64,000 bases of DNA from Actinoallomurus bryophytorum. Lineage in GTDB: Bacteria > Actinomycetota > Actinomycetes > Streptosporangiales > Streptosporangiaceae. The notes beneath the pieces are model-generated. The model was not told where the DNA came from. It saw only the letters and a program-made list of their open reading frames with translations, and made no database searches. Positions 7,475-25,073 of this stretch are shown here, in pieces. Made by a program: the position numbers and the translations under genes. Location: the NCBI RefSeq assembly GCF_006716425.1, contig NZ_VFOZ01000001.1, positions 3,782,001 to 3,846,000 of the forward strand, in the 5' to 3' direction. The stretch's first letter is position 1. Every line of letters begins with the position of its first letter.

Positions 7475-7834
7475 GTGCACCGGCAAGCCGTACGGCCTGG
7501 GGTCGTTCGGTTGCGACCCCTGGTGGCTGGTCGGCGCCAAGGCGCTGGTCATCTCCTGCTTGGCCTGTTCGACGAGGAAGAAGGCCTCGCGGCCAGGGCC
7601 CTGGCCGAGCTCGGCGTATCGAAGGACGTGGCCGAGGCCTGGATCGTCGAAGAACTCCGGTTCTACCGGGACGTTCTCGGGCTGAAGCCGCAGTTCGATG
7701 ACGACAGCGGCCCGTACGCCAAGTTCGAGGCTCACCGCCTCGACCGCGTGGGAGATGTCGCCGATCCGCGCGCCTGGGACGGCCGCCCAGATCGCTCCAG
7801 ACGGGCGGGCTCAGACGGGGCGGTCCCAGCCTAA
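7475..7834 (+). pseudogene. chimeric reading frame built from Clp_N regulator and VOC gene fragments
   Basis: An open frame of 119 codons. Bases 7554-7657 match 24578-24681 (the last third of the HTH-Clp_N gene) with about three differences in 104; bases 7656-7731 match the reverse complement of 24949-25024 (the VOC gene) with one difference. The two pieces join at a 2-base overlap TC. Both keep their native reading frame, giving EEGLAARALAELGVSKDVAE through WIVEEL fused to RFYRDVLGLKPQFDDDSG. There is no good start codon or ribosome site, and both outer ends run into unrelated sequence. Most likely a recombination scar rather than a working gene. Confidence 0.7.
7732..7800 (-). pseudogene. 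N-terminal/middle fragment of the same broken methionine aminopeptidase
   Basis: The minus strand encodes AIWAAVPGARIGDISHAVEA, which matches the MetAP segment preceding the catalytic GHGIG block. In an intact gene this would run directly into the part now at 7385. About 346 bases, including the chimera and the hairpin repeat, therefore sit inside the dead map gene. Upstream of it (above 7800) the match is lost. Confidence 0.65.
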
Positions 7835-11786: not shown

Positions 11787-12104
11787 GTGACCGCAGAACA
11801 CATCCACTCCGGAGCATCTCAGGTCGATGACACTGACGTCGCCCAGGCCATGGCCGTCTACGACGTCCTCAACACCGATGAACAGCGCGAAGTGTTCCGC
11901 ACCGTGTACCGCGCGGTGGCCGCATACCGCCACACAAGCGACATTGACCACCTCAAAAAGCTGGCGGACAGTGTTGAGGGAATGGTCGTCCACGAAACCA
12001 ACCACCCGGGCGTGCGGGAAAAGATCAGGAACGTACCGAAGACCGCGCGTGCGGCTGGCGGGGTCGTGGACACTGCGGAGGTGATCCGGCGACTCCGGGG
12101 GTAG
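11787..12104 (+). CDS. small protein, antitoxin-like first gene of a two-gene module (DUF6247-like)
   Basis: 105 residues from GTG 11787, preceded by AGAGGAG. Alpha-helical, acidic protein: DDTDVAQAMAVYDVLNTDEQ, then RTVYRAVAAYRHTSDIDHL and a C-terminal basic stretch. The pattern resembles small actinomycete proteins annotated DUF6247, which lie next to toxin-like genes; this is recall, not a search. Two bases separate its stop from the GTG of the next gene, so it is the first cistron of a bicistronic unit. Confidence 0.6.
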   Translation: MTAEHIHSGASQVDDTDVAQAMAVYDVLNTDEQREVFRTVYRAVAAYRHTSDIDHLKKLADSVEGMVVHETNHPGVREKIRNVPKTARAAGGVVDTAEVIRRLRG

Positions 12105-12106
12105 AC

Positions 12107-12427
12107 GTGAGGCCGCTGGCGCTCACAGGGAACAGCCAGAAGGTCATTGCAGACTGGCAGGCCACCAACCCACCCGAGGTGGCGAAGGTGCGCTTAGCCG
12201 AGGTAGTGGCAACACTCGAAGATGGCACGTGGGACGCTCCTCGCTGGCATCCCTTGGACGACCCGCCAAACCCGGACTTTGTGGCTCTGCGCCCTGGGCA
12301 GAGCCTGCAGATCTACTTCCACATCGTTGTCGACGACGCCCCCGACTACCGCGAAGTCGCCGACATCGTCTCGATCGATGTCGACGAGCGGTACAACCTG
12401 CCTTTCGCTGAGGCCCCTGAGCGTTGA
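12107..12427 (+). CDS. small protein, possible RelE/ParE-like toxin partner
   Basis: 106 residues from GTG 12107 with GGGGG upstream inside the preceding gene. Pattern: an N-terminal helix pair (NSQKVIADWQATNPPEVAKV), then beta-rich segments QIYFHIVVDDAPDYREVADI and VSIDVDERYNLP. Size, the partner gene and the late beta-strand region resemble RelE/ParE-type toxins, but no catalytic residues can be named with confidence. Toxin-antitoxin role is inferred from arrangement only. Confidence 0.55.
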   Translation: MRPLALTGNSQKVIADWQATNPPEVAKVRLAEVVATLEDGTWDAPRWHPLDDPPNPDFVALRPGQSLQIYFHIVVDDAPDYREVADIVSIDVDERYNLPFAEAPER

Positions 12428-12855: not shown

Positions 12856-13416
12856 TCACTCGGTCTGCTGGGCCGTACGGTCGAGCACGGTCTGGCGCAG
12901 TGCCCGGGGGTCTATGCCCAGTTCTGCCAAGACTCTGGTGATGGTGTCCTCGCCGGCGGCGAGAAGCCCGAGTAGTAGGTGCTCGGTGTCGATGCGCTCG
13001 CCGCCGAGTTCGCGTACCTGGTGAAGGGAAAGCTGGATCACCTTCTTCAGTTGCAGTGAGAAGGCCGGTCGCGGGTAGCGGAACGCGCCGGGTCCGAAGT
13101 TTCTGTCGGCGCGTTGCTGGATCTCGGCGACGTCGATGCCCAGCGTGGACAGGGCGTCCGCCGCGCTGTGGCCGCCGGAGGTCGGTACGTCGGCCTCACG
13201 CAGTACGTCTTCCACCGCCGTGCGTGTTCGGGTGATCTCGAGTCCGTGCGCTCGCAGCGCTTCGCTCGCCGTTCCGGCGGTCTGTGCCAGTCCGAGCAGG
13301 AGGTGCTCGGTGCCGATGAAGTCGTGGTGGAGTGAGTCCGCGGCGTCTCGGGCGGCGACGATGGCGCGCTTGGCCAGTTCTGTGAACCGGTCGTACACGG
13401 TCGTGATTTCATTCAT
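12856..13416 (-). CDS. stand-alone double Clp N-domain protein
   Basis: 186 residues made of two Clp R/N repeats like those at the N-terminus of ClpA/ClpC, with no ATPase domain. Repeat 1: YDRFTELAKRAIVAARDAAD then FIGTEHLLLGL; repeat 2: FSLQLKKVIQLSLHQVRELG then RIDTEHLLLGLLAAGE. Such domains bind adaptor proteins or degradation tags. Its ATG lies one base after the stop of the HTH gene 13418-13663 and has AAGGAGA inside that gene, so the two are co-translated. The fused form of the same architecture is at 23980-24696. Confidence 0.85.
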   Translation of the reverse strand: MNEITTVYDRFTELAKRAIVAARDAADSLHHDFIGTEHLLLGLAQTAGTASEALRAHGLEITRTRTAVEDVLREADVPTSGGHSAADALSTLGIDVAEIQQRADRNFGPGAFRYPRPAFSLQLKKVIQLSLHQVRELGGERIDTEHLLLGLLAAGEDTITRVLAELGIDPRALRQTVLDRTAQQTE

Positions 13417-13417
13417 G

Positions 13418-13663
13418 TCAGTTCTCCTTGCCTGTGACCTTGCGACGCCCGGCGTGCTTTTCGTGCACGGTTTGGCGGCTTACCCGCAGCGCTGTGGCGA
13501 TGTTCTGCCAGGACCAGCCCTCGTCACGGGCGTTGTCCACGTGCAGGCGTTCGAGTTCCTCCAGCAGCCGGCGCAGTTCGAAAACCGCCCGTAGCCCGAC
13601 GGCCGGATCCTTGTTGGTCACCTGGGCTGCCAGCGCGGTCGCCGGCGTCTCATCGGCGTTCAT
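13418..13663 (-). CDS. small HTH DNA-binding protein paired with the Clp_N protein
   Basis: 81 residues from ATG 13663. The C-terminal half contains a helix-turn-helix (SWQNIATALRVSRQTVHEKH) that lines up with the HTH of the fused regulator at 23980-24696 (SWTEIGQYMGVSKQAAQKRF). The preceding helix LRRLLEELERLHVDNARDEG also corresponds. The ATG is seven bases from a -10-like element and has no ribosome site, suggesting a leaderless mRNA. Two GTCA...TGAC palindromes cover the promoter, so autoregulation is likely (inference). Confidence 0.75.
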   Translation of the reverse strand: MNADETPATALAAQVTNKDPAVGLRAVFELRRLLEELERLHVDNARDEGWSWQNIATALRVSRQTVHEKHAGRRKVTGKEN

Positions 13664-13664
13664 G

Positions 13665-13710
13665 CTGTCAGGATTCCCTGACAGTCGCCTTCGTGTCAAG
13701 GCACCCTGAC
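13665..13710 (-). promoter_or_regulatory. palindromic operators over a leaderless promoter of the HTH/Clp_N operon
   Basis: Read on the minus strand: TTGACA (13699-13694), 17-base spacer, GAATCC (13676-13671), then seven bases to ATG 13663. Operator 1 at 13665-13684 is CTGTCAGG-ATTC-CCTGACAG, a perfect 8-bp inverted repeat over the -10. Operator 2 at 13695-13710 is GTCAAGG-CA-CCCTGAC over the -35, with one mismatch. The arrangement mirrors that at 23932-23980. Confidence 0.65.
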
Positions 13711-13771
13711 GAGCGCGCTGCCGAGTCGGCGCGTGCCGGCTTCGCGCCCGCAGGCCGACAGTTCACCCACA

Positions 13772-13857: not shown

Positions 13858-14205
13858 GTGGTGGACACTTCGAGCCAGGCCTCAGCTCAGAAGCCTCAGC
13901 ACGCGACGATCGTGGATCCCGACGCGCACCAAGTCGTGTTCGAGAACGAACACGTCCGGGTGATCCATGCGCGGGCCTCGCACGGTTGGGAAAGCGCGAT
14001 GCACTCGCACTCGCCGATGCTCGTGGTCAACCTCGGCTCCGGCCGCCAGAAAGTGACCTGGGGGGACGAGACGACGCAGATCGTGGATCTAAACCCAGGC
14101 GCGGTCGTCTGGCAGGAAAGCGCTTTCGATCACGCCTGGGAGTTGCTCGCGGGCGAAGTAAACGTGATCCTCGTCGAGGTCAAGTCGGCAAACGCCGAAA
14201 AATAA
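13858..14205 (+). CDS. small cupin-fold protein
   Basis: About 115 residues from GTG 13858, eight bases after AAGGAGA. The middle reads MHSHSPMLVVNLGSGRQKVT then DLNPGAVVWQESAFDHAWEL: the HxH...G motif and the downstream histidine of a single-domain cupin, so a metal site of two or three histidines is plausible. A longer frame continues upstream but lacks a good start and overlaps the operator palindromes. Ligand or reaction unknown; the two inverted repeats upstream suggest tight regulation. Confidence 0.65.
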   Translation: MVDTSSQASAQKPQHATIVDPDAHQVVFENEHVRVIHARASHGWESAMHSHSPMLVVNLGSGRQKVTWGDETTQIVDLNPGAVVWQESAFDHAWELLAGEVNVILVEVKSANAEK

Positions 14206-14360
14206 GAAGGCGACGGTCGGTGAGCACCACTCTTCCTGACGAGCCCCAAGGAGTTCGTCGAGATCGGATCCGTATCGCGGAAATCCGCGCGACGAACAGA
14301 TCGGCAACCGGCACTAGGCCAGAGGACGAACCAGCCCGCACGTACGAAAGGAACGTCGTC

Positions 14361-14822
14361 GTGGACTACGACACGATCGAACGAGAGCTTTACATCGACG
14401 CCTCACCAGAGGTGGTCTTCGAGGTGGTCAGCAGTCCGAAATATGTCGCGGAGTGGTGGTCCGACGAGGCGGAGTTCTCGCCGACACCCGGTGATCCTGG
14501 GTGGGTCGGCTTCGGCGATGCCACCGAGGGTGGCAAGCGGGAGCGGTTCACCGTTGCCGACGCAGTGCCCTACCGGCTCTTCTCCTTCCGGTGGACCCAT
14601 CAGGAAGGGGAGACGGCATCGCCCAGCAACTCCCTTCTCGTCGTCATCGAGCTCGAGCCGTCCGGCAACGGCACTCTCCTGCGCTTCACTGAGACGGGGT
14701 TCCTCGTACGCGGTGGGGACGAGGCGACGGCCGCCGCCTGGCATGCCGACCACACCAACGGCTGGGACCTTTTCCTGCCGAGGCTGGTGACGCACGCCGA
14801 GCGAATCAGTGTGGGCGCGTGA
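14361..14822 (+). CDS. SRPBCC / AHSA1-type ligand-binding domain protein
   Basis: About 153 residues from GTG 14361 with GAAAGGAA upstream. Carries the AHSA1/Bet v1-like pattern: IERELYIDASPEVVFEVVSS, AEWWSDEAEFSP, PYRLFSFRWTH, GTLLRFTETGF and C-terminal helix WDLFLPRLVTH. Cytosolic helix-grip fold with a hydrophobic cavity; ligand unknown. Its stop overlaps the GTG of the ArsR regulator (GTGA), the common SRPBCC-ArsR pairing, so both act together. Confidence 0.85.
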   Translation: MDYDTIERELYIDASPEVVFEVVSSPKYVAEWWSDEAEFSPTPGDPGWVGFGDATEGGKRERFTVADAVPYRLFSFRWTHQEGETASPSNSLLVVIELEPSGNGTLLRFTETGFLVRGGDEATAAAWHADHTNGWDLFLPRLVTHAERISVGA

Positions 14823-15199
14823 ACGTACTGATCGATGACGAACTGTGGTCGACGGTCGGCGACCCGACCCGGCGGCGCATGCTCGACCTGCTGCTCGCCG
14901 ACGGGCACGGCACTGCCACCAGCCTGAGCGAGCAGCTGCCGGTGACCCGTCAGGCGATCGCCAAGCACCTCGCGGTTCTCGAACGGGTCGGCTTGGTACG
15001 CCCTACGGTCGCCGGCCGGGAGAAGCGGTACCACGTCGACAAGGCGCAGCTCGGTCTGGCCGTGGCTCAGCTGGCCCAGGTCAGCCACGACTGGGACTCC
15101 CGTCTCCAGCGCATTCGCCGGATCGCGGAGAGGATCCAACGCGACGGCGGAACGCCGGACGCGCCTTCGACGGATTCCGACGAAGGCGAGCCCGCGTAA
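14819..15199 (+). CDS. ArsR/SmtB-family transcriptional regulator
   Basis: 126 residues, winged helix-turn-helix: DELWSTVGDPTRRRMLDLLL, then TSLSEQLPVTRQAIAKHLAV as the recognition helix, followed by the wing LVRPTVAGREKRYHV. No cysteine pair for metal sensing is visible, so it belongs to the non-metal group commonly coupled to SRPBCC genes. The GTG start at 14819 overlaps the upstream stop by four bases. The C-terminus is an acidic tail. Confidence 0.88.
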   Translation: MNVLIDDELWSTVGDPTRRRMLDLLLADGHGTATSLSEQLPVTRQAIAKHLAVLERVGLVRPTVAGREKRYHVDKAQLGLAVAQLAQVSHDWDSRLQRIRRIAERIQRDGGTPDAPSTDSDEGEPA

Positions 15200-23931: not shown

Positions 23932-23978
23932 CGTCAACCAAAGGTTGACGATCAACAGGCGTCAACCTAAAGTTGACG
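23932..23978 (+). promoter_or_regulatory. twin GTCAAC operators over a leaderless promoter of the HTH-Clp_N gene
   Basis: Operator 1: CGTCAACC-AAA-GGTTGACG (23932-23950), perfect 8-bp arms. Operator 2: CGTCAAC-CTAAA-GTTGACG (23960-23978), perfect 7-bp arms, ending one base before ATG 23980. TTGACG (23945-23950) in operator 1, a 17-base spacer and TAAAGT (23968-23973) in operator 2 form a near-consensus promoter whose +1 would be the ATG itself. No ribosome site exists. Centre spacing is 28 bases. Confidence 0.75.
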
Positions 23979-23979
23979 C

Positions 23980-24696
23980 ATGAGCGATATGCCGGCACGA
24001 CTCGACGACCTGATCAGCTTCGTCAAGCAACAGCACCCCGAAGGCGGCCCGCTGGACCACCTCTCCGACGCCGTCCTCACCTCCGAGCGCCTCGGCGAGG
24101 TCGCCGACCACCTCATCGGCCACTTCGTCGACCAGGCCCGCAAGGCGGGCGCGTCCTGGACCGAGATCGGCCAGTACATGGGGGTGAGCAAGCAGGCCGC
24201 ACAGAAGCGTTTCGTCCAGAAGAAGACCGATGCGCCGGAATCGCTCGAGGGCGGTGTCTTCGCGCGGTTCAGCCAGCAGGCCCGCCACGCGATCGTGCAG
24301 GCGCAGGAGGAGGCGCGCTCCGCCGGTCACGACTACATCGGTACCGAGCACATCCTGCTCGGACTGCTGCACGAGCCGGATGCCCTGGCGGCCAAGGCGA
24401 TCGAGGCCCAGGGGGTCTCGCTCGACCAGGTGCGCACCGGCGTGACGGCCATCCTCGGCCCGGCAGGGCAGGCCCCGAACGGCCACATCCCCTTCACGCC
24501 GCGCGCCAAGAAGGTATACGAGCTGACCGTACGGGAGGCCCTGCGGCTCGGCCACAACTACGTCGGCACGGAGCACGTCCTGCTGGGCCTGTTCGACGAG
24601 GAGGAAGGCCTCGCGGCCAGGGCCCTGGCCGAGCTCGGCGTATCGAAGGACGTGGCCGAGGCCTGGATCGTCGAAGAACTCTCGCGAACGGCCTAA
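23980..24696 (+). CDS. HTH-Clp_N fusion regulator
   Basis: 238 residues. N-terminal about 80 residues hold a helix-turn-helix (SWTEIGQYMGVSKQAAQKRF near 55-75); residues about 90-235 are two Clp N repeats (FSQQARHAIVQAQEEARSAG...YIGTEHILLGLL and VYELTVREALRLGHNYVGTE then HVLLGLFDEEEG). There is no ATPase. Likely a DNA-binding sensor whose Clp_N module binds a protein or modified residue, with autoregulation through the palindromes that touch its start codon (inference). The stop codon overlaps the convergent VOC gene's end. A piece of the coding region is duplicated at 7554-7657. Confidence 0.85.
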   Translation: MSDMPARLDDLISFVKQQHPEGGPLDHLSDAVLTSERLGEVADHLIGHFVDQARKAGASWTEIGQYMGVSKQAAQKRFVQKKTDAPESLEGGVFARFSQQARHAIVQAQEEARSAGHDYIGTEHILLGLLHEPDALAAKAIEAQGVSLDQVRTGVTAILGPAGQAPNGHIPFTPRAKKVYELTVREALRLGHNYVGTEHVLLGLFDEEEGLAARALAELGVSKDVAEAWIVEELSRTA

Positions 24697-25073
24697 CGCG
24701 GGGCGAGCCACTCCTGCAGCTCGATCAGGTTCCCCTCCGGGTCGCGCAGGTGCGCCACGCGCAGCCGCTCCCTCATCACCGACGGCTCGGTGATCAGGGT
24801 GGCGCCGCGCGCGACCACCGAGGCGGCGTACTCCTCGACGTCGTCCACCTTGAGAACGACGAGCGCCCGGTCGCCGGCGGCCGCGGCCAGGCCGGGCAGG
24901 GAGCGTACGAGATCGGCGCGGTCGTGGAGTGCGATCCCGGCCGCGCCCGCCTCGAACTTGGCGTACGGACCGCTGTCGTCATCGAACTGCGGCTTCAGCC
25001 CGAGAACGTCCCGGTAGAACCGGAAGCACATCGTAAAGTCGGACACGATCAGCCGTACCTGGGCGAGTTCCAT
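24693..25073 (-). CDS. VOC-superfamily (glyoxalase/bleomycin-resistance-like) protein
   Basis: 126 residues from ATG 25073. Two beta-alpha-beta-beta-beta modules: MELAQVRLIVSDFTMCFRFY followed by RDVLGLKPQFDDDSGPYAKF, and the second with VVLKVDDVEEYAASVVARGA and VAHLRDPEGNLIELQEW, whose final glutamate is the usual metal or substrate residue. Function within the superfamily is open. Convergent with the HTH-Clp_N gene (4-base overlap). A 76-base piece is copied, inverted, at 7656-7731. Confidence 0.82.
   Translation of the reverse strand: MELAQVRLIVSDFTMCFRFYRDVLGLKPQFDDDSGPYAKFEAGAAGIALHDRADLVRSLPGLAAAAGDRALVVLKVDDVEEYAASVVARGATLITEPSVMRERLRVAHLRDPEGNLIELQEWLAPR

Follow-up and report, generated by a model that had tools for sequence, protein, structure and literature searches.

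The window, a stretch of 64,000 nucleotides from Actinoallomurus bryophytorum, carries at 13663–12856 on the minus strand a pair of short genes. The first (13418–13663, minus strand) is an ORF of 81 aa encoding an HTH protein (Pfam HTH_23, 4.3e-6, above cut-off), and the second (12856–13416, minus strand) is an ORF of 186 aa encoding a stand-alone double Clp_N protein (Pfam Clp_N, 4.8e-22, in two stretches). They are joined by TGA, one base and ATG, with AAGGAG upstream of the Clp_N start, and by the look of this junction the Clp_N gene is translationally coupled to the HTH gene. Both ORFs and the one-base gap had been described in an earlier sequence-only reading, which the ORF positions and Pfam matches bear out. 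The HTH protein contains a long helix (residues 20–47), likely the dimer helix, followed by HTH helices at 52–59 and 63–77 with the recognition motif VSRQTVHEK. Its AlphaFold2 model (pLDDT 85.2) gave no match below E=0.001 in a Foldseek search against the PDB; the profile search did better, reaching RelI 9sdc (1.2e-6) and ClpC2 8ada (6.6e-4). For the Clp_N protein (model pLDDT 90.9), the top Foldseek match was the NTD of Mtb ClpC1 (3wdb, 2.6e-9), the family and structure comparison with ClpC that had been proposed previously. Pfam, AlphaFold2 and Foldseek together indicate two Clp_N repeats in a ClpC-NTD fold, with an extra helical segment separating the two repeats. As had been claimed, the split Clp_N protein is genuinely homologous to the ClpC NTD but carries no ATPase, lies beside a DNA-binding-type protein and is paralogous to a fused protein in the window.

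Several other features surround the pair. Two adjacent small ORFs of 105 and 106 aa (11787–12427, plus strand) are convergent with it; they have no Pfam match, and their layout resembles that of a toxin-antitoxin pair. On the opposite side of the promoter (13860–15199), a cupin-like ORF, an AHSA1-type protein and an ArsR-family regulator stand in a row. A mobile cassette comprising the pair and its neighbours was considered and rejected, since none of the six tested window neighbour genes lies beside the five closest relatives (flanks of about 1.5 kb at three of these loci).

Two operators precede the HTH gene. The proximal one, TGTCAGGGAATCCTGACA (13666–13683, minus strand), is an exact TGTCAGG-N4-CCTGACA palindrome ending 2 nt before the HTH ATG, and the distal one, CGTCAGGGTGCCTTGACA (13694–13711, minus strand), is a two-mismatch copy 28 bp away, whose two departures from the palindrome include the TTGACA of a predicted –35 box (13694–13699, minus strand). 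A weak –10-like AATCCT (13670–13675, minus strand), likewise predicted from the letters, lies inside the proximal operator. Because AATCCT is placed 18 bp from TTGACA and at –12 to –7 of the ATG, leaving no room for an untranslated leader, a leaderless mRNA is predicted, and the arrangement suggests a promoter whose two boxes are both covered by the tandem sites. Neither the exact nor the tandem site occurred in any of 150 Markov windows. The segment delimited in the sequence-only reading, ending at 13710, covers nearly the whole promoter/operator region, and the operators themselves passed unremarked there.

The fused paralogue (23980–24696, plus strand; 238 aa) combines an HTH and a double Clp_N in one chain. 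The previous claim that it joins both modules of the split pair is well founded: it matches Pfam Clp_N at 5.1e-34, the HTH profile aligns to its N-terminal part (E=3.6e-9), and the Clp_N parts of the split and fused proteins are 33% identical over 163 residues (E=3e-20). It further matches the ClpC1 NTD (4.8e-50), the C-terminal domain of ClpC2 (9p2p, 1.5e-30; 8ad9, 7.6e-29) and the ClpC2 N-terminal fragment (8ada, 2.3e-21). The published clpC2 operator is CGTCAAC-N5-GTTGACG, which lies 1–2 nt ahead of the ORF and often recurs further upstream (PMC10030653). Two perfect copies lie here at 23932–23950 (distal) and 23960–23978 (proximal), 28 bp apart, the latter 1 nt before the ATG. Given the matches to the solved ClpC2 pieces and the two perfect operators, the gene is, on sequence grounds, a clpC2 orthologue. 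Mycobacterial ClpC2 is an autorepressor released by cyclomarin A, for which it then acts as a sponge (PMC10030653, Taylor 2023). The spacing and position of the palindromes, 28 bp and directly before the start codon, are the same at clpC2 and the split pair, while the ClpC2 word is absent at the latter and replaced by TGTCAGG-N4-CCTGACA. A third Clp_N match in the window (7550–7636) was rejected as a further unit, because 7554–7657 duplicates part of the 3' end of clpC2 (24578–24681) at 98% identity. Positions 7656–7731 match 24949–25024 inverted, so that 7554–7731 is a rearranged segmental copy producing a false Clp_N match.

Genome-wide, exact TGTCAGG-N4-CCTGACA occurs once in 9.47 Mb, at the split pair's own promoter. 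GTCAAC-N4/5-GTTGAC occurs at four sites, two at clpC2 (N5) and two at a second split unit (N4; C1:7336608–7337394) that had not been noticed earlier, and the tandem pattern is restricted to both split units. On these exact, GTCAAC and tandem scans, the idea of a global regulon was rejected for this genome; differences in half-site or spacer seem to insulate the three paralogous circuits from each other, and each appears purely self-directed. As to how many such units the genome has, a count that had been called for, there are two split units, and HTH-fused forms are the window's clpC2, L025 and L029. Altogether, Clp_N is found in about a dozen proteins, including ClpC, ClpB-type, split, HTH-fused and stand-alone forms as well as an RHH-like fusion. 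The last (L026 4769–5569; C1:6193769–6194569) joins a CcdA/ribbon-helix-helix-like domain to a double Clp_N; with Pfam CcdA at 6e-4, below cut-off, its head would be another putative DNA-binding domain on the same type of receptor. A stand-alone ClpC-NTD-like protein of 210 aa with ClpC1-type pocket residues (L022 3736–4368; C1:1860735–1861367) is flanked by a cysS-like gene on one side and an RNA-methyltransferase-like gene on the other.

Split units are frequent in relatives. The HTH family is present in 137 of 151 sampled genomes of the same bacterial family, and its profile, which also catches fused and other HTHs, matches in 77 of 296 genomes of the phylum. The 71 units examined were that of the window, L023 and 69 fetched loci, the fetched ones being mostly high-scoring rather than a random sample. 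At least one operator was found in 70 of the 71 and two operators 27–29 bp apart in 68, with the proximal one ending 2–4 nt before the start codon in units with two; units of further families and classes share this tandem layout. A downstream ORF with some similarity to the ClpC1 NTD follows in 70 of 71 (the exception is L062), although L094 and L103, counted among those 70, really have other genes downstream of the HTH. The split pair is therefore not a chance arrangement, considering the prevalence of the HTH family and the ClpC1-NTD-like ORF in nearly all units. A search of genome contigs with the Clp_N protein ran, after the first matches, mostly into full-length ClpC, and phage records yielded weak, partial Listeria matches and nothing better. 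No description of a split HTH/Clp_N unit was found in the open literature, to which the search was confined, subscription journals lying outside its scope. The split form is widespread and common, and apparently undescribed.

The operators vary together with the recognition helix. Among 101 units compared for the half-site GTCAxx, the residue after RQ/KQ varies with base 5 (Ala with A in 137/138 half-sites, Ser/Thr with G in 56/64), and the residue after His varies with base 6 (Glu with G in 14/14, Lys/Arg/Gln with C/T in nearly all). The combinations seen are AK with GTCAAC/T, TR, SR or SK with GTCAGC/T, SE or TE with GTCAGG, and AE with GTCAAG, the last at the single locus L225. The window's VSRQTVHEK pairs with GTCAGG as expected, and SKQAAQK of ClpC2 fits GTCAAC. 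A tree with those residues masked shows six residue-class changes, six base-5 changes and one change to Glu; independent changes are few, about six for base 5 and one clade for base 6, and a phylogenetic pair test has no power on them. Taylor et al. assigned DNA binding of ClpC2 to the arginines R185/R189 of a Clp_N helix and did not mention the HTH (PMC10030653). The ClpC2 N-terminal crystal (4–72) stops at residue 72, just short of the recognition helix. Moreover, the R185/R189 positions are not conserved in split units though the operators are: the window protein has H and E, and the GTCAGC clade mostly has W/H at the first of them. Since operator bases track recognition-helix residues, the comparison suggests that DNA is read by the HTH and not by the Clp_N helix proposed for ClpC2. 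The idea that split and fused versions could serve as a natural Rosetta stone thus proved informative.

The receptor pocket was compared at seven CymA-contact positions, part of which we take to be contacts from the ClpC1–CymA structure. In the 39 proteins of the GTCAAC clade, these positions are 86% identical to ClpC1, compared with 51% elsewhere, a contact identity reached by 50 of 10,000 random position sets. Positions F2, F80 and E89 are named as contacts in PMC10030653 and K85 in PMC12583610. The CymA and pArg sites are distinct (PMC9240326, PMC12583610), and E106 of the second pArg site survives in three of the same 39 proteins, the other 36 having lost it. Most of the CymA pocket is lost in the GTCAGC and mixed-operator clades, which makes one common ligand unlikely. 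The window Clp_N has, in ClpC1 numbering, Y2, I13, V14, F80, K85, I88 and Q89; it has diverged from ClpC1 at F2, V13, L88, E89 and R93, with F2 replaced by Y and E89 by Q. At the named contacts F2, F80 and E89, it thus reads Y, F and Q, and the fused protein retains all three as F, F and E. These changes mean that cyclomarin itself may not be bound by the window protein; 3wdd is a crystal complex of ClpC1 F2Y with CymA, the same position-2 change. Lack of the ClpC pocket residues, named earlier as evidence against a binding role, is not what was found, for F80 and K85 are present. The second split unit of the genome keeps F2, V13, F80, K85, L88 and E89, and the ligands of the two units may consequently differ. 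The acidic pArg1/pArg2 residues (E32/E106 in S. aureus ClpC) have counterparts in the window protein, E31 and E106, and these glutamates together with T6 are kept in all four proteins of the window clade, where pArg is therefore a possible ligand.

Tandem operators also precede other genes in relatives. The pattern occurs in 45 of 61 family genomes and its backward control in 0 of 61. Forty sites were fetched, chosen mainly for not being at a known split unit. Apart from those at HTH–Clp_N units, they precede MsbA-like ABC exporters (L236, L237, L241, L250, L251, L254) and DrrA-type ATPases, of which L232 and L240 score above the NCBIfam cut-off and L231 below it. Others stand before genes for DUF998 membrane proteins and alpha/beta hydrolases, before one for a beta-lactamase/AmpH-like serine hydrolase (L238), or before lone Clp_N genes (L243, L244, L246, L249, L252). 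At L259 and L263, a tandem operator lies between a Clp_N gene or HTH–Clp_N unit and a divergent rifampin-monooxygenase-like gene (at L259, 328 bits and E=9.4e-98, below the 800-bit cut-off). No clear gene was found at L245, L253, L256, L257 and L261 among the 40. This company appears to be one of antibiotic resistance and fits the role of ClpC2 better than general proteostasis. At L230 and L247, which have a related HTH of about 78 aa with three GTCAAC-type palindromes, an ABC exporter takes the place of Clp_N directly after the HTH.

We consider it probable that the locus is a split, operon-encoded autorepressor and sponge of the ClpC2 type, with a Clp_N subunit that detects ligands directed at ClpC and sequesters them. 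This reading is based on gene order, homology, tandem operators, operator/helix co-variation and a partly retained pocket; it draws on the ClpC2-like promoter design, the dedicated site, the near-universal coupling to Clp_N and the resistance-type neighbours in relatives. We infer the repression, the contact between HTH and Clp_N, the ligand and the decoy role. HTH dimers would bind both palindromes over the –35 and –10 boxes and hold expression of their own operon close to nil. Produced together with the HTH, the Clp_N protein would be the receptor, either associating with the HTH or being needed for its hold on DNA. Binding of a ligand directed at the ClpC N-terminal domain, most likely a peptide antibiotic and otherwise a misfolded, pArg-marked or foreign protein, would lift repression, and Clp_N would then accumulate as a decoy that soaks up the ligand and spares ClpC.

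Protein damage or a degradation tag had been put forward as the signal sensed. A proteostasis sensor of this kind, in which Clp_N detects pArg, unfolded or damaged clients and switches the HTH in a heat-shock-like circuit, would agree with the retention of E31, E106 and T6 in the window clade and with mycobacterial clpC2, which is induced about twofold by heat and whose product slows FITC-casein degradation (PMC10030653). Nevertheless, we regard it as unlikely: the GTCAAC clade has mostly given up E106 yet retained the cyclic-peptide pocket, which argues against damage as the main signal, and the exact and tandem operators of this genome stand only at the clpC2 and split-unit promoters and those of relatives at exporters and modifying enzymes. 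The slowed casein degradation would equally suit a competitor or anti-adaptor that binds ClpC adaptors or substrates and tunes ClpCP, with the HTH as a dose-limiting autorepressor and no ligand switch. Clp_N genes standing alone behind the same tandem operator do indicate that Clp_N can serve as the output, the HTH then acting in trans. However, tight translational coupling and the almost constant pairing of HTH and Clp_N favour a complex, and fused ClpC2, whose promoter is built alike, has been proven to be switched by a ligand (PMC10030653), so that this alternative appears rather improbable. The RelI match of the HTH profile, the relatedness of RelI to ClpC2 (PMC13284704), the small two-gene operon and the palindromic operators could also recall a toxin-antitoxin-like pair, with the HTH as a RelI-type antitoxin and Clp_N as the neutralized partner. 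That is very improbable, since the partner has a ClpC-NTD fold and no toxin domain, be it a nuclease or another, and since Clp_N genes also occur alone, with no HTH gene adjoining.

Besides the split-autorepressor reading of this locus, a broader one is tentatively offered, which we hold to be possible though somewhat short of an even chance: that actinobacterial ClpC-NTD-like proteins radiated into xenobiotic receptors with split HTH partners, clade-specific operators and resistance regulons. Two recognition-helix residues would set the half-site and allow several units per genome without cross-talk. In some lineages, exporters, hydrolases and a rifampin-monooxygenase-like enzyme would be under these operators, and the units would control resistance regulons instead of being cyclomarin sponges alone.

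ClpC1 is a prominent target of new anti-tuberculosis peptides and degraders, which ClpC2 blunts. Widespread and related to the ClpC2 circuit, the split units carry its two functions on two proteins. Their operator/helix variation yields a testable claim, that DNA reading may reside in the HTH just past the solved 4–72 fragment. They may further be a source of natural repressor/operator pairs that are probably orthogonal, and the signature tandem GTCAR-N6-YTGAC locates candidate drug-exporter genes.

Among known systems, the ClpC1/ClpC N-terminal domain (PDB 3WDB, 3WDC, 5HBN) shares the fold and much of the pocket with the split Clp_N, which differs in lacking AAA+ modules and in being paired with a DNA-binding-type protein. 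Mycobacterial ClpC3 is likewise a small Clp_N protein, said in two citing papers to bind cyclomarin and ecumicin (PMC10864484, PMC10914731). The antitoxin RelI (Rv2664, PDB 9SDC) is, like the split HTH, a short stand-alone HTH of the ClpC2-related family, but its partner is the RNase toxin RelS, whereas the gene adjoining the HTH here encodes Clp_N and no RelS-like RNase. Mycobacterial ClpC2 (Rv2667; PDB 8ADA, 8AD9, 8B9O) has in common with the pair a homologous HTH-type N-terminal domain, a double Clp_N, no ATPase and tandem operator palindromes spanning a promoter predicted to be leaderless. In contrast to this single chain, the pair consists of two polypeptides separated by a stop and one base, uses a GTCAGG half-site with a 4-bp spacer in place of GTCAAC with 5 bp, and has a Clp_N with an extra inter-repeat helical segment and a partly changed pocket. 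Of the DNA switch built on Clp_N without an ATPase that the sequence-only reading proposed, the ATPase-free Clp_N and its HTH partner stand; such a switch is not new, because the fused gene is ClpC2, already described (PMC10030653). What the pair represents is no new principle; it is a split relative of an established system.
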